A DNA stretch of 28,722 nt from a virus, in the IMG/VR virus record IMGVR_UViG_3300044987_002856, positions 1-28,722 of that record. One strand, given 5' to 3'. Within the stretch, counting starts at the first letter, position 1; each line of letters opens with the position of its first letter. The translations under genes were made by a program, and so were the position numbers. The notes beneath the pieces were generated by a model. That model did no database searches. It had not been told where the DNA came from and worked only from the letters and a program-made list of their open reading frames with translations. This document shows positions 1,691 to 26,985 of the stretch, piece by piece.

Positions 1691-3820
1691 CTATGTGGTG
1701 GTGTAACAGTCCTGTGATCCGGGGTGGTTGGTGTCGTCTTCATCCGCAGCACCGCCGCCTGGATGGTCGCCGGTTCCTGCGTCATTGTCGCCGGGGTGCC
1801 GATCATCACCACCGGTTATGGCGGTGTCGTAGTCATTATCTCCGGGGTGGGTGTTCTGGTCGCAGTCTTCGTCGCCAGGATTCTCCGGGCCTCCGCCGCC
1901 TGGCTCATCTGGATCTATGACAACGGCATCGGAAACCGGGTCGCTGACCAAGTAGGCGCGCTGGACGCGGACCAGCTCGTCGCCGTCCCGTTCGATCGTC
2001 TGTATAATGCGGGGCTTAATGACTATAGATTCGGTGCGAGTGGCTGCGTCACTTGGGACGATGGCGTCCGGATCCAGCTCTATCTCCTTATTAAATGTAG
2101 CGCCAGGATCGTAGCCCGGGGAAATGTTGAGGTATGTGCGCTGGCCGGCGCTGGTAGAAGTCTGCTTATCCGGACCGAGTCCACCTTGCTCGATCATGTT
2201 GCCTCGATCGGTGGCAAGGCCGCTGACGCGGCAGATGTGATTTAGAGGAAGCATTCTTGCCCGGACACGACGCATGAGACTGAGCAAGGTGTCCGGATCA
2301 ATCCGCTTTGCGGGGCCGATCACATACGATGTGTGACCACTGGCGATATTATACTGGACCTGCTGGATGTGGGCGGCCATCGTCGCCCAGGCTGACAGAC
2401 CAGATGCGATATTCAGGACATCTCCAGGAATCGCCAGATGCTCAACCTCGACCGCCTCGATGCTGATGGTTCCATCGTACTGCAGCGGGTGCCAGGATGC
2501 GTACAGCGCGGCCGCAAAGCCGACCGGTGCAGGCTCCGCGTAATCCACGCCGCTGCGTGTGTAGGTGCCATCCGGGACGTTTGTCAGAGTCAGCTGGTGG
2601 CTGATCACCTCATCCTTAATTTTTTCGACAATCTTGTTGTCGGCATCCCGTTCCCTCACAATATAGCTGTATGTCAGGTCAAGTGTGACGCGGGCCGCTA
2701 TTGCCCCGCCCAGCCATCCCGGTATATTGCCTTCCATGAGCACGCGGGGTAAATCCTCGATATCCTCTGCCGATCCGCCTTCCTCTGCCGGGTGTACAGT
2801 CTGAGTGCATGATTTCAGGGTCAATTCCTCGGCCACAATCTTTCCGAGAGACGGTACCTGGGCAATCCACCACGGCTTATCGAGCCAGTTAACGGTCACG
2901 GTCGGCGGCGATCCGGTTGCCGGCAAGGCTTCGGACAGGATGCGTACCGACTGGGTCGTCACATTCATTCCGGCCAGCGGCAGCGTGATGCTGATCGCAT
3001 CCAGATCATCCGGATCCCCAGCCACCTGCGCCTCAATGGACTCGAAGCTGGAGCCGTCAAACTCATGGGTCCGCTCGAAAATCACACGCACTCCAGGGCA
3101 TGCCAGGTCATTACGGGCGGCTATGCTGATTTCGGTGATGTCGGAGGTGCCGATCGTCAGGGTCATCGCGGTGGCAGACGTCCGGTTGACCAGCTCAAAG
3201 ACAGGAGGATCCTCGGAATAGTCGAACCGGCATTTCCAGTCTGGCACAAACGATAGACACCGGATGATGACATCGGCACATGTCAGGTTCGAGATTTCCT
3301 CCCAAGGTATTTTGACTGATGGCCATCCGGTTGTGTCTGCCGGCACGTCCAGATTCGCGCCGCAGTCCACGGCATAATCCAGCACTTCGGCAATGATTTC
3401 GCCGACTGTCATTGCACTGCCGTCTTCCGCCTGCCCAAGGATGATCCTGCTTTTGCGCTGCCAAGTCGCGGTCTCGGTGGCTGCATCCCATATTTTCCAG
3501 CGCTGCTGGAACGTCAAACGCTGCAAGTCAAACCACGGTCCGAGGATCTCGTAACGCACTATTTCCTGCGGATTCGTACCTTGCCGGGGGTTTGTGCGGC
3601 AGACGCCGCTGAAGAACGGCTCGTCGTCGCGGGTAATCTGGCACTGCGCATTAAATGGAATTAGCACGGCGGCCATGATTCCGTTGTCGGGTTCAACTTC
3701 AAGGGTAAGGCGGTCCACATCGCATGACCCGAGGCTGACCGAAGCGCCGGTGATGTCCAGATCCTCAAATTCGGCATCAATCGAGGGCGATGCGCAGACC
3801 AGTTTCCAGACACTACTCAT
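1691..3820 (-). CDS. Tail hub / baseplate protein with acidic HPG-repeat C-terminus
   Basis: The product is 709 residues, encoded directly after the tape measure gene with a 4-nt ATGA overlap. Length, position and the N-terminal part (beta-rich, with segments such as YEILGPWFDLQRL) fit tail hub proteins that cap the tail tube and hold the distal end of the tape measure. Residues about 640-709 differ strongly: they are rich in Asp, Gly and Pro, with four HPG units (THPGDND, RHPGDND, DHPGGG, NHPGSQD) and a Cys near each end of the block. Such acidic repeats often bind divalent metal or act as flexible linkers. Hub assignment rests mainly on synteny and size; the tail suggests an added surface module. 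Confidence 0.65.
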   Translation of the reverse strand: MSSVWKLVCASPSIDAEFEDLDITGASVSLGSCDVDRLTLEVEPDNGIMAAVLIPFNAQCQITRDDEPFFSGVCRTNPRQGTNPQEIVRYEILGPWFDLQRLTFQQRWKIWDAATETATWQRKSRIILGQAEDGSAMTVGEIIAEVLDYAVDCGANLDVPADTTGWPSVKIPWEEISNLTCADVIIRCLSFVPDWKCRFDYSEDPPVFELVNRTSATAMTLTIGTSDITEISIAARNDLACPGVRVIFERTHEFDGSSFESIEAQVAGDPDDLDAISITLPLAGMNVTTQSVRILSEALPATGSPPTVTVNWLDKPWWIAQVPSLGKIVAEELTLKSCTQTVHPAEEGGSAEDIEDLPRVLMEGNIPGWLGGAIAARVTLDLTYSYIVRERDADNKIVEKIKDEVISHQLTLTNVPDGTYTRSGVDYAEPAPVGFAAALYASWHPLQYDGTISIEAVEVEHLAIPGDVLNIASGLSAWATMAAHIQQVQYNIASGHTSYVIGPAKRIDPDTLLSLMRRVRARMLPLNHICRVSGLATDRGNMIEQGGLGPDKQTSTSAGQRTYLNISPGYDPGATFNKEIELDPDAIVPSDAATRTESIVIKPRIIQTIERDGDELVRVQRAYLVSDPVSDAVVIDPDEPGGGGPENPGDEDCDQNTHPGDNDYDTAITGGDDRHPGDNDAGTGDHPGGGAADEDDTNHPGSQDCYTTT

Positions 3821-5649
3821 GGCGCGTTCCTTATCTGGCCTTCCACATCCTTGAGGCGAGTGGAGAACTGGGAGATCATGCCAGCCAGGCTGGCAAGCGT
3901 TTGCGCGGCTTCGGCGGCGGCCTTGTCAGCATCCGACTGGCTTGACCTGGCGGCGGCGGCAAGGCTCTGGCCAGTCTGGTATTCGTGTGATCGTGGAGAG
4001 TAATTGCGCTTGCCTTCCCTCGATTGCCATTGGGAAAACTGGGAAGATGCCGCGGCGGCCGTTGATACAGACTGCCCCGCTCTTGATTTGACGTCGTTCT
4101 CCTGGCGCTGAAGCTCCGCCAGCTTGGCTGCCAGTTCCTGCTTCTCGCGTTCAAGCTTCGCTTTCTCCCACATGGGATCCTTCGGTTCCGGGCCGGCAGG
4201 CGCACTGGTTTTCCCCAAGAACGTATCCAGCTCGGTCTTGTTGCCGGCGGCGGCGGCATCCCAGTTGAACCCTCCCCCGGAGGCGACGCCGGCAGACGCC
4301 TTGATGCTGCCCTTTGATTTCTCCCACTGGGCGTCAACATCCTTGAGCGTGTCCTTGATTTTCTCGCTTGTCTTCTTGATCTCATCTGCTATTCCAGATG
4401 TGCTTTCGTAGGCTGCAATAGATGAATCCAGATTCCCGCTCTTGAATTTGTCAGACCCGTACATTTCTTGAGATGATTTAAAGCCGAGACTTTTTGCCAT
4501 TTCTTCTGTTTTGTTATAGTCCAAGCTTTCGGCCTTATCCAAAGCCATATCTGCCACTTTCCCGCGTAGACCGGGGATCATTCTGACGACATCAAGCAGT
4601 TCTTTCTTGAACACTGCAGCGACTACTTTAACGATAGTGATCAACACTGAAATCTGTGATTTAATGAGCGCCATCAGCAGCGTCACGGCCATGGTGACCA
4701 GCTCGACAACGATGGTTTTCCCGACTTCGGCCATGCGAGTCATGCCGAAGTCCTGGCTGCGGAGGTGGCTGATCAGGTCGGCGGCCGTCTTGACCTGGAC
4801 AATGACATAGCTGACGGCAGATCGCAGTCCGGTGGCGATCTTGTCGAAGACGGCTGAGTCAATCAGGCTGTTGACGGCGCGCTCGGCTTTCTCGAATGCG
4901 CCGGACAGGTTCAGGGCTTCCGCCACGGTCTGACCGATCTTCTCCCAGAGGTCCCCGACCCGGTTCTTGAGCTGGTCCCAGCGCCCCGCCAGTGTTCCGG
5001 ATGCGGCCTGGGCCTGCTCGAATCCGCGCGCCATGACGCCTTGAACAATCGCCATTTTCTCGGCATCGGTTGTGGCAGTGCGCAGGGCCGGAATGTAGCG
5101 GGCCAGCATCGTGAACTGCCCCTCGTAGGCAAGGGCCAGATTCTGGGCGGCGCTTCCAAGATCCATGCGCATTGCCGTGGCAAGGCCGATCGTGCCACGG
5201 ATGGCGGGTTCGATCTTTTCCGGGGCAACCCCGAAATTCAGCAGTGTACTGGCCAGCGAAAGCGTCTCATCGTCGCCCACACGGGTCAACAGCTGCAGCT
5301 CGCTTGCCAGTGCCGTGAACTTCGGCATCAGCTCATCTGCATTGTAGCCGAGTGAGCTCAGGGAAGCGCTCAGACTTTTCGCCGCGTCATCTGATTCCAT
5401 GAATGCAGAAACGCCTTTGATGGCAATGCCAGTCATCGCGGCAGCAGCCCCGATAGCGGCATTGCGCACAAAACGCAGTTCGGCCCCGATCAGCGACAGG
5501 GAGGCTTTCGCGACAGATGCCGTCGCCTGGTACGTCCTGCCAAGGCCTTTAACGACAATTGAATGTTCCTTGATGTGCTGCCCGAGCTTGGTAATGCCGG
5601 TGGCGTCGGAGAACGTCTTGAGATAAACTTTCAGATCACGAGCGGCCAT
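3817..5649 (-). CDS. Tail tape measure protein
   Basis: The product is 610 residues. It acts as the internal ruler of the tail and typically helps DNA pass the cell envelope. It is mostly helical and Ala-rich. A hydrophobic segment lies near residues 63-84 (GAAAAMTGIAIKG) and a second, longer one near 305-350. Between them is a region resembling the conserved tape-measure core (FGVAPEKIEPAIRG, LALAYEGQF). A charged coiled-coil follows near 490-530 (KLEREKQELAAKLAELQRQ). The start overlaps the previous stop as TGATG with an AGGAGG site 6 nt upstream. Using the usual 1.5 angstroms per residue, 610 residues suggest a tail of about 90 nm, short for a siphovirus. This is a confident call. Confidence 0.85.
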   Translation of the reverse strand: MAARDLKVYLKTFSDATGITKLGQHIKEHSIVVKGLGRTYQATASVAKASLSLIGAELRFVRNAAIGAAAAMTGIAIKGVSAFMESDDAAKSLSASLSSLGYNADELMPKFTALASELQLLTRVGDDETLSLASTLLNFGVAPEKIEPAIRGTIGLATAMRMDLGSAAQNLALAYEGQFTMLARYIPALRTATTDAEKMAIVQGVMARGFEQAQAASGTLAGRWDQLKNRVGDLWEKIGQTVAEALNLSGAFEKAERAVNSLIDSAVFDKIATGLRSAVSYVIVQVKTAADLISHLRSQDFGMTRMAEVGKTIVVELVTMAVTLLMALIKSQISVLITIVKVVAAVFKKELLDVVRMIPGLRGKVADMALDKAESLDYNKTEEMAKSLGFKSSQEMYGSDKFKSGNLDSSIAAYESTSGIADEIKKTSEKIKDTLKDVDAQWEKSKGSIKASAGVASGGGFNWDAAAAGNKTELDTFLGKTSAPAGPEPKDPMWEKAKLEREKQELAAKLAELQRQENDVKSRAGQSVSTAAAASSQFSQWQSREGKRNYSPRSHEYQTGQSLAAAARSSQSDADKAAAEAAQTLASLAGMISQFSTRLKDVEGQIRNAP

Positions 5650-6245: not shown

Positions 6246-6370
6246 GATAGCATTTCCTTGTGGCAGTGAGGAACCCGGGCGGAGTCAGACGTATCTCCGG
6301 GGCATGCACACCGGAGACCGGAGCACTGCCACGTTAGGCCGATCCTGTTTTTACGGGGTCGGCTTTTCAT
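6233..6370 (-). CDS. Possible 45-residue Cys-rich small protein
   Basis: The ATG overlaps the stop of the minor head gene as ATGA and has a perfect AGGAGG site 6 nt upstream, formed by the last Arg codons of that gene. The product is basic at its N-terminus (MKSRPRKNRIG) and has five Cys and one His, including CSGLRCACPG and later PHCH. It overlaps the first codons of the following gene. Mu carries a small zinc-finger translational activator, Com, near mom, but I see no convincing similarity to it. The good initiation signals support expression. Overlap with strong RNA structure means it could equally be a coupling device rather than a functional protein. Confidence 0.35.
   Translation of the reverse strand: MKSRPRKNRIGLTWQCSGLRCACPGDTSDSARVPHCHKEMLSCSR
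6260..6363 (-). promoter_or_regulatory. Nested inverted repeats: possible structured RNA upstream of the gpG-like gene
   Basis: GTGGCAGTG at 6260-6268 is the exact complement of CACTGCCAC at 6324-6332. Inside this, TCTCCGG at 6294-6300 pairs with CCGGAGA at 6311-6317 across a 10-nt loop. A third imperfect hairpin (8 bp, one mismatch) lies at 6338-6345 and 6356-6363. In the minus-strand transcript the outer stem ends directly before the AAGGAA ribosome site of the 6245 gene. There is no U-tract, so it is not a simple terminator. It may control translation or mRNA processing. The 45-codon reading frame at 6233-6370 overlaps it. Confidence 0.4.
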
Positions 6371-7668
6371 TTGGCCCTCCTGTAGAGTGTGCGGATGAGT
6401 AGTCGCTTGTGCTTGGTGGAGTAGGCCCCGCCGGCTATGTAGCCGTCTGCGCAATCGAATGCGAGGTCGTTTTTTTCAGGTTTCTTGAGTTCGGCAATTG
6501 TCGGTCGGCGGGGCTCACCGGTTGCGATGATGGTGTCGAGGCGGGCTATATCCTGGTCGGTTACGGGGATCTGGCCGCGCATGCGTTCGGCGACTGTGCC
6601 GTGTGCGTTACGGATATGGTTGATGTGGGCTGCATCAATGTCGAATGTGGCTCCGCCTGGTATGTCGCTATTGAGGATGCGGGCAGCGGATGCCTGCTGC
6701 GCGGGGCTGATGAAGGCTATTGCGCCTGCGGCCTGCTGGCCCTGCGTCGCGCGGTAGGCAAGTTCGGCCAGTGTTTTTACGGGGTCCGCGATGAAATGCA
6801 GGGTACCGTCGCTGTCGCGCATAGCCTGTTTTCCGAAAGCGCTCTGCAGGGCATCGGCAATGTCCGGGCGGGTATCCTGCATGGCCATAGATACAGGCTG
6901 GTTCAGCGGGTCCATAGAGGATTTGATCTTGTGGCCGGGCGCGATGACGCCGAGTTCCTCCGCGCGGCGACGGGACACGTCGCGCACGCGCATACCGCTC
7001 ATGAAGTCGAAGGGCGGATAGGGATTGCCGAAAGCGGAAATGGCACGCCAGATGGGATCGTTCTTGATGGCGACGAATGGTCCGGATTGGAACTGGGCGA
7101 TAGTGGCGGTGGTACGGGAGCCTAGGGAGCGGCGGGCATCGTTCCAGCGGCCCTGCCAGTCGCGTTCTTCCTTGCGATTGATGGCTCGGTAGAGCTCGTC
7201 TGCCGGCCAAACGTCAAGGACGGTGGGGTCCTGCTGCTGGCGCCAGGAGCCGTAGCCGCGTGCCATCTTCAGCTGGGTGTCGATGATGAGGTTGACGCGC
7301 TTGTCGCTGGAAAGGTCCTGGAGTCCGCCTCGCTTGTCCTGATCCGGCTGGTAGCCGAGCGAGGCGAGTGTGCGTTTCATGCGGGCACGGACTTGCGCGG
7401 GGGAAATGGATTCGCCTGATTTGGTGGGGATTAGACCATCAGGCGTGATGCGCACGTCGGGCTGCACCATGCGCTGGATCTGGGTGGATACATCGGAGAG
7501 GTATCCGGCGTAGGGGGTGCGGGCGGAAAAGAACGCGCGTTCGCGTATCTGCTGGGGTATGAACTCCCCGATGTCCCGGCTGCCGACCGATGGCGACAAC
7601 GCCACAACGCGCTTGAGCGAGGCGTAGCGCAGGGCATCGGTCATGGTTACGGGAGCAGAGAAAATCAT
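6367..7668 (-). CDS. Minor head (Mu F-like) protein with C-terminal BECR-type nuclease domain
   Basis: The product is 433 residues. The middle region (RDWQGRWNDARRSLG, then FGNPYPPFDFMSGMRVRDVS) resembles the head-morphogenesis/minor capsid family of Mu F and SPP1 gp7. Residues about 340-433 look like the phage-associated Barnase-EndoU-ColicinE5-RelE (PBECR) fold: HINHIRNAHG, then a helix with VTDQDIARLDTIIATG, then strands ending KRLLIRTLYR. Such RNase or toxin-like domains are known fused to minor head proteins, possibly injected with the DNA. The gene is not next to the portal as usual but lies between tail fibre and tape measure. ATG is 3 nt after the upstream stop, with GGAG about 10 nt away. 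Catalytic residues are not proven. Confidence 0.65.
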   Translation of the reverse strand: MIFSAPVTMTDALRYASLKRVVALSPSVGSRDIGEFIPQQIRERAFFSARTPYAGYLSDVSTQIQRMVQPDVRITPDGLIPTKSGESISPAQVRARMKRTLASLGYQPDQDKRGGLQDLSSDKRVNLIIDTQLKMARGYGSWRQQQDPTVLDVWPADELYRAINRKEERDWQGRWNDARRSLGSRTTATIAQFQSGPFVAIKNDPIWRAISAFGNPYPPFDFMSGMRVRDVSRRRAEELGVIAPGHKIKSSMDPLNQPVSMAMQDTRPDIADALQSAFGKQAMRDSDGTLHFIADPVKTLAELAYRATQGQQAAGAIAFISPAQQASAARILNSDIPGGATFDIDAAHINHIRNAHGTVAERMRGQIPVTDQDIARLDTIIATGEPRRPTIAELKKPEKNDLAFDCADGYIAGGAYSTKHKRLLIRTLYRRAK

Positions 7669-7828: not shown

Positions 7829-8467
7829 TCAGAGTTCCGACTGCCATCCGGTGTTGTCGATGTTCTTGACCGGCGCACGGCCACCGATGGTGCCGTACTG
7901 CTGCGCCGGATGGACCCAAAAGGCGACTTGCCCCCCAACGTTGCACTTGCAGAACACCATGATGACTGGCCCGGACGAACGGCCGTAAGCCTGGGCGGCT
8001 GCGGCGATCTCGGCGCAACTTCGGTCCAGAACCCACTCGGCATAGCCGTCCACAATGCGCTGAGGCGAGCGTCCGTTGTTGGCGGCTAACCACTGAGACT
8101 CGGTCATCGGCGGCCTTGGATCCACGTCTTTGTGGCCGTGGGCGGTGACCAGCGAATACCCGCGCGGCGAGAATGCGGCCTTGATCCGGAGCACGGCCCG
8201 GCCATCCCTTTCAAACCACTGCATTTCCGAGATGGCTTCTGCCGACGGGGGCTCTGCCGCGGGTGCCTCTGGCTCTGCCGGCAACGCCGGGGCGGGTGCT
8301 TCGGGCTCGTTTACCGGGACATCTGCCGCAGGGACATCCTCGCGCCAGGGCAGGCGGTCGATTTCCGCCTGGATGCGGTCGCCGGTTGTCTTGCAGCCGC
8401 CTCCAATAAGGCAAACGAGCTGCAGTGCGCAGATTAACATGATGGCGGTGGGGATGTGGTCTCTCAT
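7829..8467 (-). CDS. Predicted lipoprotein with Pro/Ala/Glu-rich linker, unknown function
   Basis: The product is 212 residues. The N-terminus has a hydrophobic stretch ending LIGGGC at about residue 25, resembling a lipobox, so the mature protein may be lipid-anchored and exported. A linker rich in Pro, Ala and Glu follows (residues about 50-75). A folded C-terminal region has several Trp and a pair of Cys (VFCKCNV). The ATG overlaps the protease stop (ATGA) and has AGGAGG 7 nt upstream. Outer-membrane spanins are lipoproteins with Pro-rich linkers, but they are shorter and lack such a C-terminal domain. Superinfection-exclusion lipoproteins are another option. No family recognised. Confidence 0.5.
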   Translation of the reverse strand: MRDHIPTAIMLICALQLVCLIGGGCKTTGDRIQAEIDRLPWREDVPAADVPVNEPEAPAPALPAEPEAPAAEPPSAEAISEMQWFERDGRAVLRIKAAFSPRGYSLVTAHGHKDVDPRPPMTESQWLAANNGRSPQRIVDGYAEWVLDRSCAEIAAAAQAYGRSSGPVIMVFCKCNVGGQVAFWVHPAQQYGTIGGRAPVKNIDNTGWQSEL

Positions 8468-9297
8468 TCTCTAGCCTCCTGGAGGGTTTGCCATGCGGCG
8501 TTTATGCGGGCCGCGTCCATGCCTGCCTGCACCAGCAGGAGGTAGACGGCGGCAAGATTGGATTTTGCGCGCTCCTGGTCGGCGGTGAGCTGGCGCGTCA
8601 TCGAGCGGCGGATGATATCCGGCATGATCAGGTCGGCATCTGCCGGCAGCCCTCGATAACCGAGGGCCAGCAGGTTGAGGTGCAGCGCCGCGAGCTGGTC
8701 GCGGAGGGTCTGCGGGATCCCCGCGGCGGCGGCGCGGACGGCCTCTGCCGGTGTCGATGGCTGGCCGGGGATGATTACCTGCCACATCTCGGTTGATAGA
8801 TAGATGTGATCGCCGAGGCTGATGCGTCCAAATCCGGACGCACCCCAATCGCTGCCCCACGAGTTGGCAATCCGTAGATACGCGCCATCGTATCCCAGCA
8901 GGCAAACGGCATGACTGCCGATGTACATACCCAATGATCTGACCAGCCCATCCGGATAGGGACTCCGCCAGTCATCCGGGATGTTGTACGCGACCAGCAG
9001 CGGGCCGTAAGCAAGGCGGGATATGTCTGGCGTCCGCCGCATTGTCGTGCCTGCAGGGAGCCAGCCAGCGGAATACGCCGCGAAAAAGCCCTCTGGCATA
9101 GTGAGCTTAGTGCCTTTGCCGTCTGGGTAGCGTTTGGCTCGCTCGGCCTGGTAGGCGGCGATGATGGCCTCGTCGTTTGGTCGGGATCCCGTGACGGCCT
9201 CCAGCCAATGCGCAACGGCAAAGACCGTGCAGGCTCCAGATTCTTCGGCATCGCGTCCTGGGTGGACGGTGGCGGACCAGTCAATACGCGGTATCAT
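8464..9297 (-). CDS. Papain-like (C1 family) cysteine protease
   Basis: The product is 277 residues from ATG at 9297, chosen because GGAGG lies 5 nt upstream and the ATG overlaps the previous stop; a start four codons earlier is less likely. The C1 signature is clear in order: Cys23 in SGACTVFA, His129 in GSHAVCLLGYDG and Asn145 in IANSWGSDWGASGFGRISL, which matches the NSWG block of papain. The usual oxyanion-hole Gln six residues before Cys is not present (Ala or Glu there). No signal peptide or propeptide is seen. The C-terminal 100 residues are helical and unassigned. Roles could be virion maturation, host entry, lysis or host-protein cleavage. The catalytic triad is visible; biological role is unknown. 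Confidence 0.75.
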   Translation of the reverse strand: MIPRIDWSATVHPGRDAEESGACTVFAVAHWLEAVTGSRPNDEAIIAAYQAERAKRYPDGKGTKLTMPEGFFAAYSAGWLPAGTTMRRTPDISRLAYGPLLVAYNIPDDWRSPYPDGLVRSLGMYIGSHAVCLLGYDGAYLRIANSWGSDWGASGFGRISLGDHIYLSTEMWQVIIPGQPSTPAEAVRAAAAGIPQTLRDQLAALHLNLLALGYRGLPADADLIMPDIIRRSMTRQLTADQERAKSNLAAVYLLLVQAGMDAARINAAWQTLQEARE

Positions 9298-9779
9298 GAT
9301 TCCTCCCATAGCCTTTGCAGTTCCTGATTGCGGCGCAGCAGGCGTCTGTAGGCCGATGCATACTGCATGGCCGATTTGATGTCATGGCGCTGGCTGACCG
9401 GAATCGCCTTTTCCAATGCAGATCGCAGCTCCTGCAGATAGTCGCGGCGAGCCAAATCCTTGACATGATCATCATCAGATGCTGCAACAGAATCCGGAAG
9501 TAGATCGATATCACATGTCGAAACCACATCTTCCCCAGTGTATGGACGTGACACAACATCGCTCATGCGATTGCGATATTTAAGGATGTATCCGCGGATG
9601 TAGGCATAAATCAGGCGAGCACCGCCAGTGCCATTGGCCCGGCCATCGTGTTTATTGGCGGCCTTGATCAACCCCAGCATGCCGGATGCAACAATATCAT
9701 CGTAGTCGTGGCGGTAGCGATATGGCCTGGAGAGTGCCAAAACCATAGGGCGATATTGCTCGACAATGTCCGCGATCAT
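9294..9779 (-). CDS. Sigma-70 region 2-like protein lacking region 4
   Basis: The product is 161 residues. Residues about 5-72 follow sigma-70 region 2: IVEQYRPMVLALSRPYRYRH, then YDDIVASGMLGLIKAANKHD (compare the family's DLxQEGxxGLIRAxxxFD), then GARLIYAYIRGYILKYRNRM (compare FSTYAxxxIRGAI). This segment normally binds the beta-prime clamp helices and the -10 element. The C-terminal half (RRDYLQELRSALEKAI and following) is helical and charged and does not look like region 4. It starts in an ATGA overlap with AGGTGG 6 nt upstream. It may redirect or block host RNA polymerase, or be an orphan regulator of late genes. The fold call is from motif reading only. Confidence 0.65.
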   Translation of the reverse strand: MIADIVEQYRPMVLALSRPYRYRHDYDDIVASGMLGLIKAANKHDGRANGTGGARLIYAYIRGYILKYRNRMSDVVSRPYTGEDVVSTCDIDLLPDSVAASDDDHVKDLARRDYLQELRSALEKAIPVSQRHDIKSAMQYASAYRRLLRRNQELQRLWEES

Positions 9780-10486
9780 GGTGCCACCTGCAGGGTGTGG
9801 CGGCGGTAGCAGAGCGGATCGGCGAGCGACTGGATGATGATCTCGGTCGCGCCGCCCTGGATGTCGCTGACGGCCCAGACGGCGCTGTTGGTCGTAGCCC
9901 CCTGGTTGGAGTCTATCGACGCAAAGACGGCCTGCGCTGACCAGTCGTTAGTCGTCCCGACCGCGCGGGTACCAAGCTGCACCAGGCTGCCAGCGCCGGC
10001 GGCCACCCAGCGCAGGGTGGTGTTGCTGCCGTTGGTCACGGCAGAAGGCGGGTTGACCAGGTGAATACCGGAAATGACGACGGCAGAGGCCTGCACGGCG
10101 AGCGTGCGGCCGTACTGGGGCAAAGAGCTGACGCGGACGATTCCGGCAGAGGTCAGCCACTCCGGGGCATCCGGTAGATTAAACGTCCACGTGTTGTCGC
10201 CGTACTGGCTGGGCACGCCATTGGCCAGAGGGCGGTAGACGCTGCCGCCGTTGAGGCTGATGTCCAGGTTGACCCGCTCCGGGGCCATCGTCATCCAAGG
10301 ATAGCGGGATTGCACGGCGGCTGCAGTGGAGTTGCTTGGCCAGTTCCAGGTGATTGGATACGGGCCGGCGGCCATGGCGGCAGAGGCCAGCATTAGACAC
10401 ACCCCGCACGCATATTGCATGACTCTGGTGGGTACGATTGCGGAGACCGGCACACGCCGGTCCGCTATGCGTGCGGGGTAGATCAC
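9776..10486 (-). CDS. Exported protein of the tail region, unknown function
   Basis: GTG at 10486 is the chosen start because it overlaps the fibre stop as GTGA and has GGAGG 7 nt upstream; the frame is open further but would overlap the fibre gene by 52 nt. The 236-residue product has a long basic N-region (RIADRRVPVSAIVPTRV) followed by a Sec-type hydrophobic core and cleavage motif (CLMLASAAMAAG). The mature part is beta-rich with many Thr, Asn and Ser and possibly one Ig-like domain. Its place directly after the fibre suggests a fibre-associated or host-surface protein. A signal peptide on a virion gene is odd and noted separately. Confidence 0.55.
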   Translation of the reverse strand: MIYPARIADRRVPVSAIVPTRVMQYACGVCLMLASAAMAAGPYPITWNWPSNSTAAAVQSRYPWMTMAPERVNLDISLNGGSVYRPLANGVPSQYGDNTWTFNLPDAPEWLTSAGIVRVSSLPQYGRTLAVQASAVVISGIHLVNPPSAVTNGSNTTLRWVAAGAGSLVQLGTRAVGTTNDWSAQAVFASIDSNQGATTNSAVWAVSDIQGGATEIIIQSLADPLCYRRHTLQVAP

Positions 10487-13400
10487 GGGTACGCCTCCAA
10501 AACAACGCGGTTGGTGACGCCGGACGCAACCCATAGCAGATTCGTGCCACCTGAGATGAGTAAAACAGTCCCCTTAATTTTGATCTCATCGCCATCTGCC
10601 GGCAGACGCACAACTGGCATACCGCCAAATGTTGAGCCCCAGCCGGTGGCGGTGGGGTTGGTGACGTAGTTAATGACGTTTGGAGAGGATGCGTAGATAT
10701 TAGCGCCAGCGGACGGATTGTTGCCGTAAAATGTCACGTTCGTAAGCACATCGCAGCCTTCAAACGCATATGTTCCAATGCTAGTCACTTGTCCAAGATT
10801 GGCGACCGTGAGTGCGTCGCATGAGTCGAATGCGGCATCGCCAAGGCTTGTTAAGTTGGGGAAGTTTACGCTTGGTAGTATAATGCAACCGCCAAACGCA
10901 TTATAGCCAATACTTGTCACATTTTGAAGAGTAACGTTTGTAAGGATAGAGCAACTGCAAAATGCATTTTCGCCAATGCTCTTTATATTATCCCCACCTT
11001 TCACAGATGTTATATTAGACCCGGCTTGACCAGGCGAGAACAGCGACTCGCCTAGGCTACGCACCGGTACCCCGTCTAGCATGTCCGGAATCACGACATT
11101 CGCGGGGCCGCTGTAGTTGGTCAACGTGATCTCTAATCCATCGCTGATCCATTGCCAGTTGGTTGCGTCTGCCGGATTTTGCCAAGCCGAGAAGATGTCG
11201 TTAGTGAACGGAGCGATTACGGCCTGGGCGGCGCTGGTCGCGGCGGGAGCTTGGATATAGCCGAGCAGCGTCCAGGGAGTGCCAGTGGAGTATCCGGCAG
11301 AGGCATGGTTGCCCCAGGAGTAGGCGGTAGACCAGGTACCGGTAGGCCATGCCTCGACGGACTGCAGGCGCGTGTTGATCGCGCCGACCGTGCCTGTGGT
11401 GGCGTAACCGGTCAGGCCCGTTATGGTTTTCCCGGACCGCATTGACAGGCCGGCGACGCCCCAGTCAGCGACCAGGTTCCCGGCGGCCACGTAGGTCCAG
11501 ACATCCTCGGCGGATCGATACCAGCCGGTGTCCGGATCCGAGACGGTGGAGAGCGCAGGCTGGGCGGCGCTGCCGTCGTAGAGGCGGACGTTGGCGGTGA
11601 GGTTGCTCTGCAGGATGTTGATCGTGCCCATCGGGATCGTCAGCCCATCGCGGCCAAACCAGCCCACAATCTGCTGATCAAGCACGACCGGCATGATGGA
11701 GTTGGTGCCGTACATGGCACGGTAGAAGGCGGCCGCGTTGGCGGGGACAGACTCGATGCTGTTCGTTCCAGCGGAATAGACCAGGTTTGACGACAGGACC
11801 GACTGCCAGACGATCTTACCCTGCGCAAGGTCATAAACCGGAGTGGTCTGGTTCACCGTGGGGGTGTCGATTACCTTGCCCCGGATCCGGGCGACGGTGC
11901 TCGTCTGCAGGTGGCTGCCGGTCACGTCGCCGCTGATCGCGACGCCGCCAGCCTCTGCCGCCGATACCCGGGCGGCCAGCGCCAGGTGGTCTACCTGCGT
12001 GGCTCGGAGCGCTACGGCCGCGTCCAGCTCGAACTGTGTCGCCATGTCCACGTAGCGGTGCTCGCTGACACTCTGGTACCAGATCAGGCCGTAGCCGTTG
12101 GCTCGGGCAGTGTTGTTGACGATCCCCTGGGCGATCTTGTCCACTCGGTACCCCGTCGCGAACGTACCGGAGATGTCGCCAGTGGCGGCCAGTGTCCGGA
12201 CGTACTGCACGTTGACGGCCTCACGGAGCTGGTCGCCGGGCGGGGTATCGACCAGCAGGTGCAGCCCGGCAAAGTCCCGCGAGAACGCTACCCTCTCCGG
12301 GAATGTCCATGTGTAGAAGTCCACCTGGCCTACCGTGAGCGAGGATCCGGATGTGTTGCGCAGTTTGACGCCGAACATATTGGTCGCGACGATGTTGTCA
12401 CGGGTGGCATCGTACCCGAACCAGGTAGCGGCGGTGGTGTTGCTGGCGTACTGTGCTGACCAGATGCCTGCAGAGGGCGTCAGGACGATCCGGCTGACGC
12501 ACTGGGTGGCGGACAAAAGGATGTATCCGACATCCGCTGTCAGGATCAGGTTGCCATCGAGGATATTGGCGTTGTAAGCCATCCATCCTTTGTTGTGCTG
12601 CCAGACCCCGCTGGCGATCTCCAGCCAGTTTGAGCTCGCGAACGACTCGGTTAACTGATGGGTGTGGTCATTACCGTCCACCAGCCCGCGCACCTCGCTG
12701 ATCTCCGTATCCACGTAGGATTTGGAAACGGCGTTCGACTGGAGATTGGCGATGCTGCTGTTGATCCCGGAGAGGTCAACGCTGCCGTGCACATAGCGGT
12801 TGAGGTTGGTTGACCACACGATAGCCTGTTGGTTGCCTGGCACATCATTGGCCAGCGGCAGCGTGCGACCGCGGGTGGCGACCACAACGGCGTTGGAGCT
12901 TTGCCCCGTCACGTCCCCGTTCATGGTGGCCCCAGCGGCGGCCGCCGCGATCGCCACATCCTGCCCGGCATCGCGGATCACCTGCCCGGACGCCTGCGCC
13001 TGCAGGTTGCTGGTCAAGCCGGCGGCGGCTACCGCGAGGGCCTGGTCCTGCGCCGCGTTGGTTTGTCCGGCCTGCACGATGTACGCCTGCAGGTTGCTGG
13101 TGACGCCAGCAACGCCGTCGCCGACCAGGTCGGTGACGTTGCTGATGGCGGCGTCGTGGCCGTCGATGCGGTTATTGATGGCGAGTACGTCGCCGGGGCC
13201 TGCGAACGGGGCGGCTTCCGGGTGCAGATGCTCGGTGACAAGCGACCAGTCAACCACCTCCGTGATCTCCGGTACGCGGTTGGTGGCATCGCCCTCGACG
13301 ATGCCGCGCAGTTTGATGGTGCCTGCGGCGCGCGGGTTGACCCCGTTGGTGCTCTGGGTGATGAAGTTGTAGGAAAGGCTGCTGACGGTGCCGGTCGGTA

Positions 13401-13782
13401 CGTTTCCCGGGCTCCACGTAACGCGGATCACCCCGCTCGTGGCGTTGTGGACGCTTCCGCTGGCGGAGTAGTATGTCCCTTCCGCCATGCCTGCATGACG
13501 GTAGCGCATGCGGACCTCGTAGACGGCGGACAGGTCCATCGGCTGGGAAAGGTTCAGGAAACGCGGCTCCAGGATGACCGTCTCCCCGCGGTAGAGTTCC
13601 AGCGGGAACACGGCCGGGCGCGTGGTCTCGACATCCCAGGGTATTACCGTGACATCCCCTTCCGCTGCATTGACTCTGCAGCCGCCCAGAATGAACGATG
13701 CAACAAACACCCAGAACACGACACCGCAGAGGATAGCCGACAGCCAGAAGAAGAACCCGGAAACCAATGCTTTCAATGTCAT
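10483..13782 (-). CDS. Large tail fibre with N-terminal membrane/signal segment and BspA-like LRR C-terminus
   Basis: The product is 1099 residues, the largest in the window. Residues about 9-33 are a hydrophobic segment ending ILGGC, a possible signal or lipobox. Residues about 45-175 are beta-rich and resemble the upper-baseplate (BppU) N-terminal type (VFPLELYRGETVILEPRFL). The long middle has repeated Ala-rich and Asn/Thr-rich segments (TSNLQAQASG, SGDVTG motifs) typical of trimeric fibres. Residues about 890-1045 carry BspA-type leucine-rich repeats: NVVIPDMLDGVPVRSLGES, then several copies of SIG-x(2-3)-AF-x-x-C (NAFCSC, NAFGGC, AAFDSC, YAFEGC). The DNA for this part is visibly more AT-rich than its flanks, suggesting recent acquisition. 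Likely host recognition protein. Confidence 0.7.
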   Translation of the reverse strand: MTLKALVSGFFFWLSAILCGVVFWVFVASFILGGCRVNAAEGDVTVIPWDVETTRPAVFPLELYRGETVILEPRFLNLSQPMDLSAVYEVRMRYRHAGMAEGTYYSASGSVHNATSGVIRVTWSPGNVPTGTVSSLSYNFITQSTNGVNPRAAGTIKLRGIVEGDATNRVPEITEVVDWSLVTEHLHPEAAPFAGPGDVLAINNRIDGHDAAISNVTDLVGDGVAGVTSNLQAYIVQAGQTNAAQDQALAVAAAGLTSNLQAQASGQVIRDAGQDVAIAAAAAGATMNGDVTGQSSNAVVVATRGRTLPLANDVPGNQQAIVWSTNLNRYVHGSVDLSGINSSIANLQSNAVSKSYVDTEISEVRGLVDGNDHTHQLTESFASSNWLEIASGVWQHNKGWMAYNANILDGNLILTADVGYILLSATQCVSRIVLTPSAGIWSAQYASNTTAATWFGYDATRDNIVATNMFGVKLRNTSGSSLTVGQVDFYTWTFPERVAFSRDFAGLHLLVDTPPGDQLREAVNVQYVRTLAATGDISGTFATGYRVDKIAQGIVNNTARANGYGLIWYQSVSEHRYVDMATQFELDAAVALRATQVDHLALAARVSAAEAGGVAISGDVTGSHLQTSTVARIRGKVIDTPTVNQTTPVYDLAQGKIVWQSVLSSNLVYSAGTNSIESVPANAAAFYRAMYGTNSIMPVVLDQQIVGWFGRDGLTIPMGTINILQSNLTANVRLYDGSAAQPALSTVSDPDTGWYRSAEDVWTYVAAGNLVADWGVAGLSMRSGKTITGLTGYATTGTVGAINTRLQSVEAWPTGTWSTAYSWGNHASAGYSTGTPWTLLGYIQAPAATSAAQAVIAPFTNDIFSAWQNPADATNWQWISDGLEITLTNYSGPANVVIPDMLDGVPVRSLGESLFSPGQAGSNITSVKGGDNIKSIGENAFCSCSILTNVTLQNVTSIGYNAFGGCIILPSVNFPNLTSLGDAAFDSCDALTVANLGQVTSIGTYAFEGCDVLTNVTFYGNNPSAGANIYASSPNVINYVTNPTATGWGSTFGGMPVVRLPADGDEIKIKGTVLLISGGTNLLWVASGVTNRVVLEAYP

Positions 13783-14186
13783 GACGATACTCCCGCGATG
13801 AATGTGTATCTGATCTGGAGCGTCACGCCGATCTGGACCAGACTGTAGCTCTGCAAGGCGGCATCCGCGAAACTGCGGGTGCCGCCGCCGTCGTAGGTGA
13901 TCACCAGCGTGCCAGCGGTATTACTGTTCAAGAAGGCGGAGATTGCCGCCTCGGCCAGGGCGTTCGTGGCGTACTCGGTCTCGGTGGAGAACGAGATGGT
14001 CTCGACCTTGCCGCCCCGGCCGATGGGGCGGGCGTGCGTCTTGCGGATGGGCAGGCGCGTCTGCACCTGGTACCCGCCGTCAATCTCCAGCCGTCCGATC
14101 GGTCCCTGCGCCTGGCCAAGCACGCGGGCATGGCCGTGGCAAAGGGTGGTTGACCCGCCGCCGGTATGATTGAGCACAATCTGCAC
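13779..14186 (-). CDS. Small tail-region protein, unrecognised
   Basis: The product is 135 residues. It starts at GTG (14186) 24 nt after the tail tube gene with a GGGGGTG-type site upstream, and ends in an ATGA overlap with the fibre gene. The sequence is beta-rich with a GRLEIDGGYQVQTRLPI segment, a helix near ALAEAAISAFLN and no hydrophobic signal. In siphoviruses this position often holds a tail assembly chaperone pair made by frameshifting, but I see no second frame or slippery heptamer. It may be a tail-completion or minor tail protein. Function is inferred from location only. Confidence 0.5.
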   Translation of the reverse strand: MQIVLNHTGGGSTTLCHGHARVLGQAQGPIGRLEIDGGYQVQTRLPIRKTHARPIGRGGKVETISFSTETEYATNALAEAAISAFLNSNTAGTLVITYDGGGTRSFADAALQSYSLVQIGVTLQIRYTFIAGVSS

Positions 14187-14210
14187 GCCGCACCCCCTTC
14201 GAGCCTGCCG

Positions 14211-15137
14211 TTATGCCGCCGCGATGGCCAGCGTGCCGACAGCACCCATCCCGGTGCTCTCGAAGCCGATCTCGCCGCTACGCAGCGAGGTGGACCCCCA
14301 CTGGCAGGGACCTTCCACGACGCTGATGCCGTTGAGCACCACAATCAGCCCGCCGACTGCTCCGGTGATGGTCAGCGTGTAAGCCGTGCCGCCGTCGATC
14401 TGGCTGCCGAGGGCCGCGCCGGAAGGCTTCATGTAGCCGAGGATGTCGTCATAGTCCAGGTTGGCGATGCTGGCCTTTGCTTTCCACGTCACGCCCTTGA
14501 CCTTCTTGTCCACCGTGCCGATGCTGTTGATGTAGCGCTCTTCCAGCTGTGGCTCGATCGAGACCTTCCACGCGCCATCGGTAAAAAGCGTCACCGGGGA
14601 GGCTCCGCCGCTGAGCACGGCGGTGTAGGGCACGGCGATGATGTCGGCATCGCTGAACGTCTCGCTGTAGGCCGTGGTGCCGGTGGTGTAGAGACTGGCG
14701 GCCGTGGCCCGCTCCAGCCCGCTGCCGATCAGGTGCCCGATCGTGCACTGCCCGAAGGCGGTCTCGCGCGGGTCGAGGATCAGCTCCGGAGGCTGCTCGA
14801 CGGCGCTGCTGGTGAACTGCACCCAGTTGCCATCGGTGCCGTGGATCTTGCAGATGGTATCGGTCGCCCCGAATACGGAGGTATTGACCGCGACGGTCCG
14901 GCACCAGGCCGGGAAGAGCGCGGCGATGATGTCCGCCGTGATGCGCCCGGCGGGGGTGAAGGTGGTCTGCGCCTTGCCGTCCGCCCGGCGCGGCTTGCCC
15001 TCGCCGTGCGTGGAGACCATCGGCCTCCAGGGCGCGAGGTCAGGTGTCGAGACGATGTTCTCCTTGGCGAACAGCTTGAGCGTTCCCAGTACCAGCGATC
15101 CCGGTCCGTCAAATATGGCGTTGCGTGCGATTCCCAT
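14211..15137 (-). CDS. Major tail tube protein
   Basis: The product is 308 residues, preceded by AAAGGAGAAAGATC before ATG. It is rich in beta-forming residues, with a C-terminal Ig-like-looking segment (AYTLTITGAVGGLIVVLNGI) and many Gly/Thr, as expected for the tube subunit that polymerises around the tape measure. The N-terminal MGIARNAIFDGPGSLVLG resembles tube proteins that begin with a short segment followed by a pore-lining strand. It lies after the neck genes and before the fibre gene. Size is within the range for tube proteins carrying an additional C-terminal domain. A contractile system would need a sheath gene next to it; none is present, which supports a non-contractile tail. Confidence 0.6.
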   Translation of the reverse strand: MGIARNAIFDGPGSLVLGTLKLFAKENIVSTPDLAPWRPMVSTHGEGKPRRADGKAQTTFTPAGRITADIIAALFPAWCRTVAVNTSVFGATDTICKIHGTDGNWVQFTSSAVEQPPELILDPRETAFGQCTIGHLIGSGLERATAASLYTTGTTAYSETFSDADIIAVPYTAVLSGGASPVTLFTDGAWKVSIEPQLEERYINSIGTVDKKVKGVTWKAKASIANLDYDDILGYMKPSGAALGSQIDGGTAYTLTITGAVGGLIVVLNGISVVEGPCQWGSTSLRSGEIGFESTGMGAVGTLAIAAA

Positions 15138-15149
15138 GATCTTTCTCCT

Positions 15150-15593
15150 TTATTCTTCCTTTGCGAGCTGGACGATCGTCTGGAACGTGTTCCGGCAGAT
15201 GACCAGCCCCTTTTCATCGAATGTGTCCGTGTCCACGTGCGGCAGCGACTTGCCCCGCACCCAAATCCTGTTGTGCAGATGGGCGGCCACCTGCTCACCG
15301 GCGGCGTTCGCGCTGATCTGCGTCCCCTTCGCGCTCTGGTTGAACATCACGTTCTCCAGTACATCCACGACGAGCTTGCACTCGAGGGTTACGTAGGGAG
15401 CCCCCGGCGTGATGTTCTTCCCTCCGGGGGTATGCACCAGCACCAGGATCCCCGTCTTGCTCTTGAGCGTGACGTTCAGCTCCGTGCGCAGGTCCTTCTT
15501 GCGCTCCCATACGATCGGGAGCCGCTGGAAGAACCGCTCCGCCGTGAGGAGGGCCACCACGCTCTGCTGACAGGTTTCCAGTGCCGATGCCAT
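15150..15593 (-). CDS. Neck or tail terminator-like protein
   Basis: The product is 147 residues, starting 3 nt after the upstream stop with AAGGGGG before ATG. It combines an N-terminal helix (CQQSVVALLTAERFFQRLPI) with alternating strands and a helix, the layout typical of tail terminator or tail-completion proteins in the position of Mu gp37. A VLVHTPGGKN turn and a conserved-looking EVQLKCE-type strand pattern (TLECKLVVDVLENVMFN) also fit. It would close the tail tube and dock it to the head. Sequence similarity to a named family is not certain; the call rests on order and secondary-structure pattern. Confidence 0.45.
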   Translation of the reverse strand: MASALETCQQSVVALLTAERFFQRLPIVWERKKDLRTELNVTLKSKTGILVLVHTPGGKNITPGAPYVTLECKLVVDVLENVMFNQSAKGTQISANAAGEQVAAHLHNRIWVRGKSLPHVDTDTFDEKGLVICRNTFQTIVQLAKEE

Positions 15594-15596
15594 CGG

Positions 15597-15860
15597 TTAT
15601 TCCCCCTTGCCGGTCCGGATGGTGATGGTCATGCCGTCCACCCCGCACATCACGCGGTAGCGCTCGGCCTGGATATTGCCGCGCGCGGCGACCTGGGCGG
15701 CCGCCTCCATCGCCTCCACATTGGTGCCGGCGAACCCGGCGAGCATCACCGCGCCGGGCTGCTTGGTCGCCCCGTGCCGGAAACCGGCCTCGCGGGCTTC
15801 GGCATCCAGCGTGCGAGGTTCCTTCGCCCCGGCTCCCGGGGTGGCCTTCGCGCCGCTCAC
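15597..15860 (-). CDS. Small protein of the head-tail junction region, unrecognised
   Basis: The product is 87 residues. It overlaps the upstream gene by 4 nt (ATGA), which supports translation in this frame. The N-terminal third is Ala/Gly-rich and polar; a helix with VEAMEAAAQVAARGNIQAE follows, then a short strand pair (MCGVDGMTITIRTGKGE). No signal peptide, Cys pair or HTH is visible. Location between the connector-like gene and neck gene suggests a minor morphogenesis role, but nothing in the sequence proves this. Confidence 0.45.
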   Translation of the reverse strand: MSGAKATPGAGAKEPRTLDAEAREAGFRHGATKQPGAVMLAGFAGTNVEAMEAAAQVAARGNIQAERYRVMCGVDGMTITIRTGKGE

Positions 15861-16123
15861 GCCGCACCGCCTTCCAGCTCCTGCAGGCCGGTGATGACCA
15901 GCACCAGGGATCCGTGATGCTGGTAGCTGCGCATGTCCACGCGCTGCATGCCGGCGGCGGCGATCGCGGCGTCGGCCCGCTCGAACACGTCCGCCGATCC
16001 GGTCGGCAGCCGCAGCAGGGCGGTGCCTTTCTCATCCTCGCGGACAAGCTCCCAGCCCGCAGGCAGCTGGGATTGCAGGGTCGGGTTCTCGATCAGGTCT
16101 TCCTTGTCTTTTTTCTTGGCCAT
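15857..16123 (-). CDS. Small protein of the head-tail junction region, unrecognised
   Basis: The product is 88 residues with a strongly basic/acidic start (MAKKKDKEDLIEN), and AGAGGA about 8 nt before ATG. The middle section (GWELVREDEKGTALLRLP) looks like a small mixed alpha/beta fold. It ends in a 4-nt overlap with the next gene. No family is recognised. It is transcribed with gp36-like and neck genes and is probably a minor head-tail joining or structural component. Confidence 0.45.
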   Translation of the reverse strand: MAKKKDKEDLIENPTLQSQLPAGWELVREDEKGTALLRLPTGSADVFERADAAIAAAGMQRVDMRSYQHHGSLVLVITGLQELEGGAA

Positions 16124-16150
16124 GGTCTTTTCCTCTTGTCGGGTTGCGTT

Positions 16151-16597
16151 TCAGATGCCGTCCTGGAGCGATTCGGTCCAGCGGCGGTCAGGGGTTGAGA
16201 TGCGTGGGGATTGGGCGGCGCTCTGTCCGGCGTTGTCCGGATCCTCGATCGCGAATAGGCCGCTGGTAACATCATTGCGCAGGATGTCGATGGCCACGTC
16301 GCGGGATTTGGCGCGCTGCTTGGAATCGTCGATCAGCACGCCGCCCGCGCGGGTGTTGAGGTCCACGATGCAGATGTCGGCGGCAAGCAGGATCAGGCTG
16401 TCGGGCAGCGTGCCGGCAGCCCCGAGGGTGTTGCGGCGGCATCCGGCGACGAACCCGCGCACCAGGTCCGTGGTCAGCGCGATCTGCGCGGCCACGGGAT
16501 CGCCCTGGCTGTCGCCCAGCAGGACTTCCCGCATGGTCTCCAGCTCCGCGCCGCTAATCCGCTGCAGCAGGTCCGCTTCTGTCATCGCTCTCCACAT
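16151..16597 (-). CDS. Mu gp36-like (DUF1320) head-tail connector
   Basis: The product is 148 residues from ATG at 16597, with AGGAG 7 nt upstream; a second ATG four codons later is less well spaced. The protein is largely helical with the pattern of DUF1320 proteins: EADLLQRISGAELETM at the start, a helix ending LVRGFVAGCRR, then a segment SRDVAIDILRNDVT. Members of this family sit next to the capsid gene in Mu-like phages and bind the portal as a head-closure component. Order here (capsid, then this gene, then neck genes) fits. The terminator-like hairpin just upstream suggests lower expression than the capsid gene. Confidence 0.6.
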   Translation of the reverse strand: MWRAMTEADLLQRISGAELETMREVLLGDSQGDPVAAQIALTTDLVRGFVAGCRRNTLGAAGTLPDSLILLAADICIVDLNTRAGGVLIDDSKQRAKSRDVAIDILRNDVTSGLFAIEDPDNAGQSAAQSPRISTPDRRWTESLQDGI

Positions 16598-16629
16598 CGC
16601 CTGTCTCCTGGTTCCTGGTTCCTGTTTTC

Positions 16630-16676
16630 AAAAAGGTCGCGCGCCTGTGTTGCTTTTCATCGGCTGCAGGCGCGCG
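16630..16676 (-). terminator. Partial Rho-independent terminator after the capsid block
   Basis: CGCGCGCCTG at 16638-16647 is an exact 10-bp inverted copy of CAGGCGCGCG at 16667-16676, separated by 19 nt. On the minus strand the second arm is followed by ACC and then TTTTT (16634-16630). This has the layout of an intrinsic terminator in the leftward transcript, though the loop is long. Genes downstream stay in the same direction, so it probably attenuates rather than stops transcription. Confidence 0.55.
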
Positions 16677-16698
16677 CCCGGCAGATGAGGGGTGTGGA

Positions 16699-17109
16699 TC
16701 AATGTTCCTGGACCTCGTACTCCACGATGACCGTCGAGCCCGTGGACACCAGCGAGCTGAATCGCAGCGTGTCCCCGTACTTGAGCAGCGTGTGCGCCAG
16801 GGTCGCCTGCGTGCCGACGCCGGCGGCGCAGGTCACCGAGCCCACGGTCTGCGTGTACAGCGTGCCCGCCGCATCGGCGATGACGCGGGAGGCGGTGATC
16901 ACGTTCGTCGCGTTGATGCTGCCCTCCACGCTGATGCGCTTGAGGTCCAGCACCTGGTACTGCTCCGCGACCGTCAGCGTTCCCGCCCCGGTCGTCACCG
17001 CCAGGGTTACAAACTGCCGCCCGCCGACGCTGCCCGCATACGCCGCCGCCGCGATGAGCACGAAGGCCACCAGGGCCAGCGTCATCCGGATGATCGATGT
17101 CTTCTTCAT
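16699..17109 (-). CDS. Small exported protein encoded next to the major capsid gene
   Basis: The product is 136 residues with a textbook Sec signal peptide: basic start MKKTSIIRM, hydrophobic core LALVAFVLIAAAAYA and an Ala-x-Ala type cleavage before GSVGG. The mature part (about 110 residues) is beta-rich with alternating Thr/Val strands (FVTLAVTTGAGTLTV) and a short Cys-containing loop. AAGGAA lies 8 nt before ATG. It sits directly behind the major capsid gene and before a terminator-like hairpin, so it should be highly expressed. Proteins in this place are usually capsid decoration or minor proteins, which do not carry signal peptides. Its role is unknown. Confidence 0.6.
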   Translation of the reverse strand: MKKTSIIRMTLALVAFVLIAAAAYAGSVGGRQFVTLAVTTGAGTLTVAEQYQVLDLKRISVEGSINATNVITASRVIADAAGTLYTQTVGSVTCAAGVGTQATLAHTLLKYGDTLRFSSLVSTGSTVIVEYEVQEH

Positions 17110-17152
17110 GTTGCGTGTTCCTTCTCTCCGTTTAAGGCCCGGAGGGGCCGGA

Positions 17153-17178
17153 GGCGGGCGGCGCCATTGCCGCCCGCC
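17153..17178 (-). repeat. Strong hairpin after the capsid gene stop
   Basis: GGCGGGCGGC at 17153-17162 and GCCGCCCGCC at 17169-17178 form a perfect 10-bp stem with a 6-nt loop, 10 nt after the capsid stop codon. There is no T-tract on the minus strand, so it is more likely an mRNA 3'-end stabiliser or processing site than a terminator. Confidence 0.5.
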
Positions 17179-17188
17179 AGGGTGGTGG

Positions 17189-18139: not shown

Positions 18140-18258
18140 GATGTCTTCTCCTTCTTTCCTGATTCAGCTTTCCGGCGTCCGCCGGGGTTGGTCACTCTTG
18201 GTTTTGAACGTTTGCCGCCTTCAGAGGCAGGCGGCCGGGCCTTTACCTGCTACGTTGC

Positions 18259-25073: not shown

Positions 25074-25101
25074 ATTATAGCAGGCCGTCCTGAAAAGGCA
25101 A
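25074..25101 (-). promoter_or_regulatory. Predicted late promoter (extended -10)
   Basis: On the minus strand TATAAT lies at 25079-25074, preceded by TGC, giving TGCTATAAT, an ideal extended -10. A -35 candidate TTGCCT is at 25101-25096, 16 bp upstream. It lies 3 bp after the T-run of the terminator that closes the immunity cassette, and upstream of all late genes. Predicted transcription start is near 25067. An unknown activator may also be required. Confidence 0.55.
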
Positions 25102-25103
25102 AG

Positions 25104-25135
25104 AAAAAGCCGCCGGGCGATAAAGCCGGGCGGCT
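25104..25135 (-). terminator. Rho-independent terminator ending the accessory cassette
   Basis: AGCCGCC at 25108-25114 pairs with GGCGGCT at 25129-25135; a bulged GG/CC extends the stem. On the minus strand the second arm runs straight into TTTTT (25108-25104). It lies 20 nt after the stop of the membrane gene at 25156, so transcription of the two-gene cassette should end here. Confidence 0.7.
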
Positions 25136-26377: not shown

Positions 26378-26406
26378 ATTCTGTACCGCATGCGCCTGCA
26401 AGTCAA
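26378..26406 (-). promoter_or_regulatory. Predicted promoter of the accessory cassette
   Basis: On the minus strand TTGACT (26406-26401) and CAGAAT (26383-26378) are 17 bp apart, matching sigma-70 boxes at 5/6 and 4/6 positions. The -35 overlaps the repressor stop codon. An 8-bp palindrome CGCATGCG lies in the spacer. The cassette can therefore be transcribed apart from the repressor. Confidence 0.4.
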
Positions 26407-26948: not shown

Positions 26949-26985
26949 AGCGAACTTTTTTGTTGACTGCATTCGCTTAGCGAAT
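26943..26985. promoter_or_regulatory. Two candidate operators of the lysis-lysogeny switch
   Basis: ATTCGCTTAGCGAAT at 26971-26985 is a palindrome with two perfect 7-bp arms around one base. A second related site, GTTCATAGCGAAC at 26943-26955, has arms of 4 bp and shares the AGCGAA half. The second covers the repressor start codon. Binding of repressor or the Cro-like protein here would control both directions. Confidence 0.55.

Follow-up and report, generated by a model that had tools for sequence, protein, structure and literature searches.

A sigma-70 region-2-only protein encoded among the fibre and tail genes of a Verrucomicrobiota-related phage

Introduction

What does a phage gain from a protein that carries sigma-70 region 2, has no region 4, and is encoded among tail genes? 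This question is raised by a gene in a 28.7-kb virus record, a single linear contig of 28,722 nucleotides, which was analyzed over its full length and is referred to here as the window. A preliminary description had proposed that the gene product could capture or block the host RNA polymerase or, alternatively, direct the late genes from a promoter at position 25074. Region 4 of sigma-70 is a helix-turn-helix (HTH) domain that binds the -35 element and the beta flap.

Results

The gene and its operon

The open reading frame is present as the preliminary description gave it (Table 1), and it is packed tightly between its neighbors. Its ATG shares an ATGA with the stop codon of the upstream gene, and its TGA shares another with the ATG of the downstream gene, whose strong Shine-Dalgarno sequence (GGGAGGAATCATG, with GGGAGG in the last codons of the sigma gene) lies within the sigma reading frame. 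Given the overlaps on both sides and the strong Shine-Dalgarno sequence, the gene is very probably real and translated within an operon of tightly coupled genes. It has a GC3 of 0.56, compared with 0.72-0.94 in the seven neighboring and structural genes measured, and has therefore probably been acquired later or experiences relaxed selection on its codons.

The minus strand carries all of the terminase, portal, head protease, scaffold-like, capsid, fibre and tape-measure-like genes. The sigma gene is in the fibre/tail part of this late operon; as had been described, it lies among tail genes, with a long LRR_5 fibre gene upstream and a weak tape-measure match downstream. Long plus-strand reading frames at 14166-18553 (583, 251 and 622 aa) were rejected, as they run antisense to real late genes, the capsid gene being on the minus strand. 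An enoyl-CoA hydratase-like protein (19797-20606, minus strand; phrog_1128, 3.6e-17) is encoded between portal and head protease.

A near-identical contig (99.9 %) extends the window by 4.4 kb on the right. Past the window end, the early region (L002 970-4376, minus strand) contains a 715-aa transposase-like reading frame, MuA-like by eye, and a 432-aa neighbor, suggesting a transposable temperate phage; Pfam yields weak HTH matches only for this region. The repressor-like gene within the window likewise points to a phage of the temperate type. Several of the closest terminases encoded in bacterial genomes come from Verrucomicrobiota (50-59 % identical), and the host is therefore probably in or near that phylum.

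Table 1. Positions of the sigma gene, its neighbors and other features in the window.
Feature	Position	Strand	Remarks
Sigma-70 region-2-only protein	9294..9779	-	161 aa, 486-base ORF
Region 2 (2.1-2.4), residues 5-78	9546..9767	-	core-binding 2.2 motif DYDDIVASGMLGLIKA conserved, 2.3 segment diverged
C-terminal residues 101-161	9297..9479	-	two long helices predicted, low confidence; at the place of region 4 without a region-4 score
Upstream neighbor, 252 aa	9776..10534	-	no family match; ATGA overlap with sigma gene
Long tail-fibre-like protein	10483..13782	-	LRR_5 (BspA-type) repeats; upstream of sigma gene
Papain-family (C1) peptidase-like protein	8464..9297	-	ATGA start overlaps sigma stop; Shine-Dalgarno sequence in sigma C-terminal codons
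Putative lipoprotein	7829..8467	-	signal sequence ending LIGGGC, by eye; no family match
Conserved late gene	6367..7668	-	weak minor-head/PBECR3 matches; marks syntenic position in related phages
Tape-measure, weak match	3817-5649		downstream of sigma gene
Capsid gene	17189-18139	-	
Repressor-like gene	26403-26972		
Late-operon promoter-like site	25074..25101	-	TTGCCT-16-TATAAT, TG before second hexamer; host primary-sigma type
Terminator-like hairpin	25103..25135	-	followed by TTTTTCTTT (T-run); just upstream of promoter-like site

Sequence and predicted structure of region 2

Three profile libraries matched residues 3-78 of the protein to region 2 of sigma-70 (best E 3e-7). The strongest matches were to TIGR02937 (E 3.3e-7, residues 3-126), with 30.1 bits against a curated cut-off of 42.9, and to the sigma factor family phrog_351 (E 3.5e-7, residues 5-79). 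Pfam Sigma70_r2 gave 7.9e-5 and 22.8 bits, just under its cut-off of 24 (25.8 bits in frame context). Since the TIGR02937 and Pfam bit scores fall below the curated cut-offs, the sigma assignment rests on the agreement between libraries and on controls. As a yardstick, the proven sigma factor T4 gp55 obtains just 0.087 with the same Pfam model. A home-built region-2 profile of 21 other sigma sequences gave 15.2 bits for residues 1-100, compared with a maximum of 7.2 for shuffles of the tested residues. The earlier assignment of residues about 5-72 to region 2 is thus upheld by the profiles and the shuffle control.

The best-scoring cellular relatives of this region are sigma factors of the FliA/WhiG/SigB group, whose models span 1e-4 to 7e-4 (SigBFG 1.2e-4, FliA 2.7e-4); unlike the window protein, these sigma factors possess regions 3 and 4. 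The closest viral region 2 is found in Paenibacillus-type phage sigma factors (L106, L184, L185 and L187-L190; 33-37 % over ~65-80 residues), which in contrast to the window protein are full-length (~370 aa) and include region 4. In phage Hayley, the sigma gene adjoins RusA and RinA genes rather than fibres. Taken over the whole protein, the nearest viral sequences are likewise common full-length sigma factors from other phages, for the most part of this Paenibacillus-phage type.

The core-binding segment 2.2 (DYDDIVASGMLGLIKA) is well kept. A Q and an E are typical for region 2.2 of primary sigma factors; in the window protein they are replaced by A and S, which could lessen its binding to the polymerase core. 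Segment 2.3 has diverged from the consensus FSTYAxxxIRG: it reads RLIYA--YIRG, as compared with FSTYAMPMIRG in the closest viral relatives, so that F, S and T are substituted and two residues are lost. In sigma-70, these residues help to open the -10 DNA. The change is suggestive but short of decisive, because FST is likewise missing from ECF-like sigma factors such as that of prophage L142 (see below).

A structure model was obtained from a six-sequence alignment made of sigma relatives. Block means of pLDDT were 77-83 for residues 1-40 and 63-72 for residues 41-70, with low confidence outside region 2. Its best PDB neighbors were sigma factors, among them region-2 domains on their own, which matched at 2.4-2.8 A across ~70 residues, e.g. 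the N-terminal domain of SigE (8b3z; probability 1.00, target TM 0.72-0.75, rmsd 2.6-2.8 A, ~71 residues) and domain 2 of sigma-A (4x8k; 2.4 A over 72 residues). The E-values of the fold matches were just 0.02-0.5, the best of them 0.02-0.05. The comparison with sigma region 2 that had been proposed as a check came out positive, and the model lends support to the sequence-based assignment; as sigma relatives made up its alignment, it is not independent evidence. A single-sequence AlphaFold model (mean pLDDT 42, meaningless fold matches) was discarded, as were RPB4 matches in a PDB sequence search (E 0.1, in an acidic linker), which were judged compositional.

Absence of region 4

None of the libraries reported region 4 in the window protein, and Sigma70_r4 had no match anywhere in the window. 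With a region-4 profile, the 61 residues 101-161 scored 1.3 bits, whereas their own shuffles reached 6.9. These results agree with the preliminary description, which had considered region 4 missing. Nor did the Sigma70_r4 search reveal a separate region-4 protein in the window and the overlapping contig (4.4 kb more; ~33 kb in total), a search that would miss T4 gp33, since gp33 is itself unlike region 4; the phage genome may also be incomplete.

At the C-terminus, ELQRLWEES vaguely resembles SLDFLYEAND of T4 gp55. The LxxLWE likeness is superficial and coincides with codons that hold the Shine-Dalgarno sequence of the next gene; a clamp-binding C-terminus would be a weak lead.

Known sigma factors with region 2 only

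The preliminary description had stated that phage sigma factors usually carry both regions. The window protein does have region 2 only, but there are precedents for this arrangement. T4 gp55 is a small phage sigma factor (185 aa) with region 2 and without region 4, which works with gp33 and the clamp (PMC2988020, PMC7892883). In Bacillus subtilis, sigma regions 4 and 2 are split over the two subunits SigO and RsoA, the latter being a stand-alone region 2 (PMC8103513).

The window protein resembles gp55 in being phage-encoded, small and restricted to region 2. It differs in several respects: (i) BLASTP gave no meaningful alignment between the two proteins; (ii) they fall into separate PHROGs (phrog_234 for gp55, phrog_351 for the window protein); (iii) gp55 has a clamp-binding C-terminus and its partner gp33, neither of which was recognized for the window protein in a search for the partner as a region-4 protein; and (iv) the gp55 gene lies outside any fibre cassette. 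By sequence, the window protein is outside the gp55 family. RsoA provides a precedent for a stand-alone region-2 protein, but it works with SigO, and the Sigma70_r4 search found no partner of that type in the window or the extending contig.

Homologues and fibre-sigma cassettes

Searches of viral contigs, species genomes, phages and plasmids, together with protein searches of 384 + 388 + 30 genomes or records, returned no close homologue of the window protein. Two candidates were rejected: a match in G528 had arisen by chance within a different frame, and a Sigma70_r2 match in G002 was antisense to other ORFs. Scanning for the neighboring genes returned nothing with the peptidase and only the same phage with the fibre.

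Comparable gene orders were found in prophages of one Verrucomicrobiota genome (G560). Prophage L142 was located through the conserved late gene (Table 1), among the phages in which that gene could be placed. It encodes two successive fibres, a 181-aa sigma factor with region 4 (5.8e-8; 13820-14365, fibre-sigma stretch 11269-14365), and then the conserved late gene. Prophage L183 of the same genome has a homologous fibre pair and a sigma factor with region 4 (1.8e-7; 12676-13221, stretch 9842-13221), followed by lipoprotein, subtilase and terminase genes. Between both prophages, the fibres are 66 and 73 % identical and the sigma factors 44 %, while the flanks differ. The homologous fibre pair and its sigma gene thus seem to be transferred together, as one cassette, into differing genomic contexts. 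The occurrence of a sigma gene in a fibre cassette is thus recurrent, and what is new here is the small sigma factor with region 4 placed right after homologous fibre pairs. These cases also show that the expectation of finding phage sigma factors with control genes is not general.

G560 has three small-sigma copies. Two are those of L142 and L183, each immediately behind its fibre pair. The third (L182, 12931-13482) follows a gene for a large secreted protein, and no recognizable phage genes were seen beside it in the stretch read. A GDSGSP serine-protease-like motif was noted by eye in the first fibre of L142; the sigma gene in the window adjoins the papain-family peptidase-like gene, and the L183 subtilase lies near the matching place. 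At the same position in eight related phages (L004, L006, L085, L086, L131, L135, L143 and L144), no sigma gene was present, and the sigma is therefore an accessory gene.

In the window, the order is LRR fibre, 252-aa protein, sigma, papain-like peptidase and lipoprotein, with fibre genes that are unrelated to those of L142 and L183. The window protein and the L142 and L183 sigma factors have in common their position directly after fibre genes, similar size, best PHROG (phrog_351) and linker register. They differ in region 4, and their pairwise similarity is weak: hhalign gave E 0.15 in the expected register, which is below significance, and BLASTP gave no alignment. Despite this weak sequence link, the window protein is best read as a reduced or divergent, or independently acquired, counterpart of the cassette sigma.

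The promoter-like site and the timing of expression

The site at 25074 resembles an extended -10 promoter of the kind read by the host primary sigma, situated behind a terminator. Transcription from it would reach the sigma gene, in the same orientation, only after ~15 kb; the protein would thus be a late product and an unlikely first activator of this promoter, and feedback is the most that might be expected. The proposal that the protein directs the late genes from this site is therefore weak. A further promoter-like sequence (TTCAAA-17-TATAAT, 10900-10928, minus strand) is located inside the fibre gene, ~1.1 kb before the sigma gene; it may serve the cassette as an internal promoter or be a chance occurrence.

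Discussion

Late polymerase binding with competition against the host sigma is the likeliest role, since the protein has preserved the core-binding helix while its remaining promoter-reading parts are absent or changed. We tentatively favor, at somewhat less than even confidence, a derived phage sigma factor that has been reduced to region 2 and would bind the host polymerase late, competing with or modifying the host sigma. The protein would be expressed late, together with the fibre genes of the operon, and its region 2.2-like helix at residues 25-41 would attach to the beta-prime clamp helices of the host RNA polymerase; through this contact it may compete with or modify the host sigma in the late phase, the protein not itself reading -35/-10 promoters. 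It would descend by loss of region 4, or by separate acquisition, in the position of the cassette sigma. The earlier suggestion of a protein that captures or blocks the host polymerase is still viable.

An alternative that we regard as unlikely, though worth weighing, is a half sigma in the manner of gp55 or RsoA, whose region 2 would read a -10-like late or cassette promoter while a separate protein, such as a region-4 mimic or a clamp-like factor, would provide the upstream contact. Both gp55, acting with gp33 and the clamp (PMC7892883, PMC2988020), and the SigO-RsoA split (PMC8103513) are examples of such a division, and region 2 of the window protein runs through 2.4-like sequence. This alternative is weakened by the lack of a Sigma70_r4 protein in the window and its overlapping contig, by the absence of similarity to gp55 and the different PHROG, and by a 2.3 segment that is without FST and two further residues of its closest relatives, even though L142-type sigma factors are without FST as well.

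Somewhat more doubtful is that the gene is a decaying remnant, i.e. a cassette sigma minus regions 3 and 4 that has no function and whose frame is kept only for the start site of the peptidase. The loss of region 4, the diverged 2.3 segment and the lack of any homologue found would fit such decay, and the low GC3 relative to the sampled neighbors suggests a foreign or relaxed gene. Yet the reading frame is intact and undamaged, with overlapping start and stop, region 2.2 is well kept, and the C-terminal 61 residues are still predicted to be helical. Recruitment to a role outside transcription, e.g. as a virion or fibre-assembly protein, is very improbable, as its one argument is the position between fibre and peptidase genes, whereas the family and fold matches beyond chance level point almost exclusively to sigma factors, and complete sigma factors with an HTH occupy the same position in other prophages.

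The favored reading of a late polymerase-binding protein may be extended to the phage group. Verrucomicrobiota phages might possess mobile fibre cassettes with a built-in sigma factor, which in this phage would have been reduced to the half that grips the polymerase and have become a late polymerase capturer; as a whole, this picture is speculative and rather improbable. A region-2-only phage sigma factor is already known in T4 gp55, and such proteins are rare, the examples met being gp55 and RsoA of B. subtilis. A second phage case, with no detectable relation to gp55 and with full-length counterparts at the same place, would allow a comparison of what a sigma factor can lose and yet remain useful, and of the reasons for a transcription factor to move together with fibre genes. 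That fibre and sigma genes are paired in both prophages of G560 can be checked directly.
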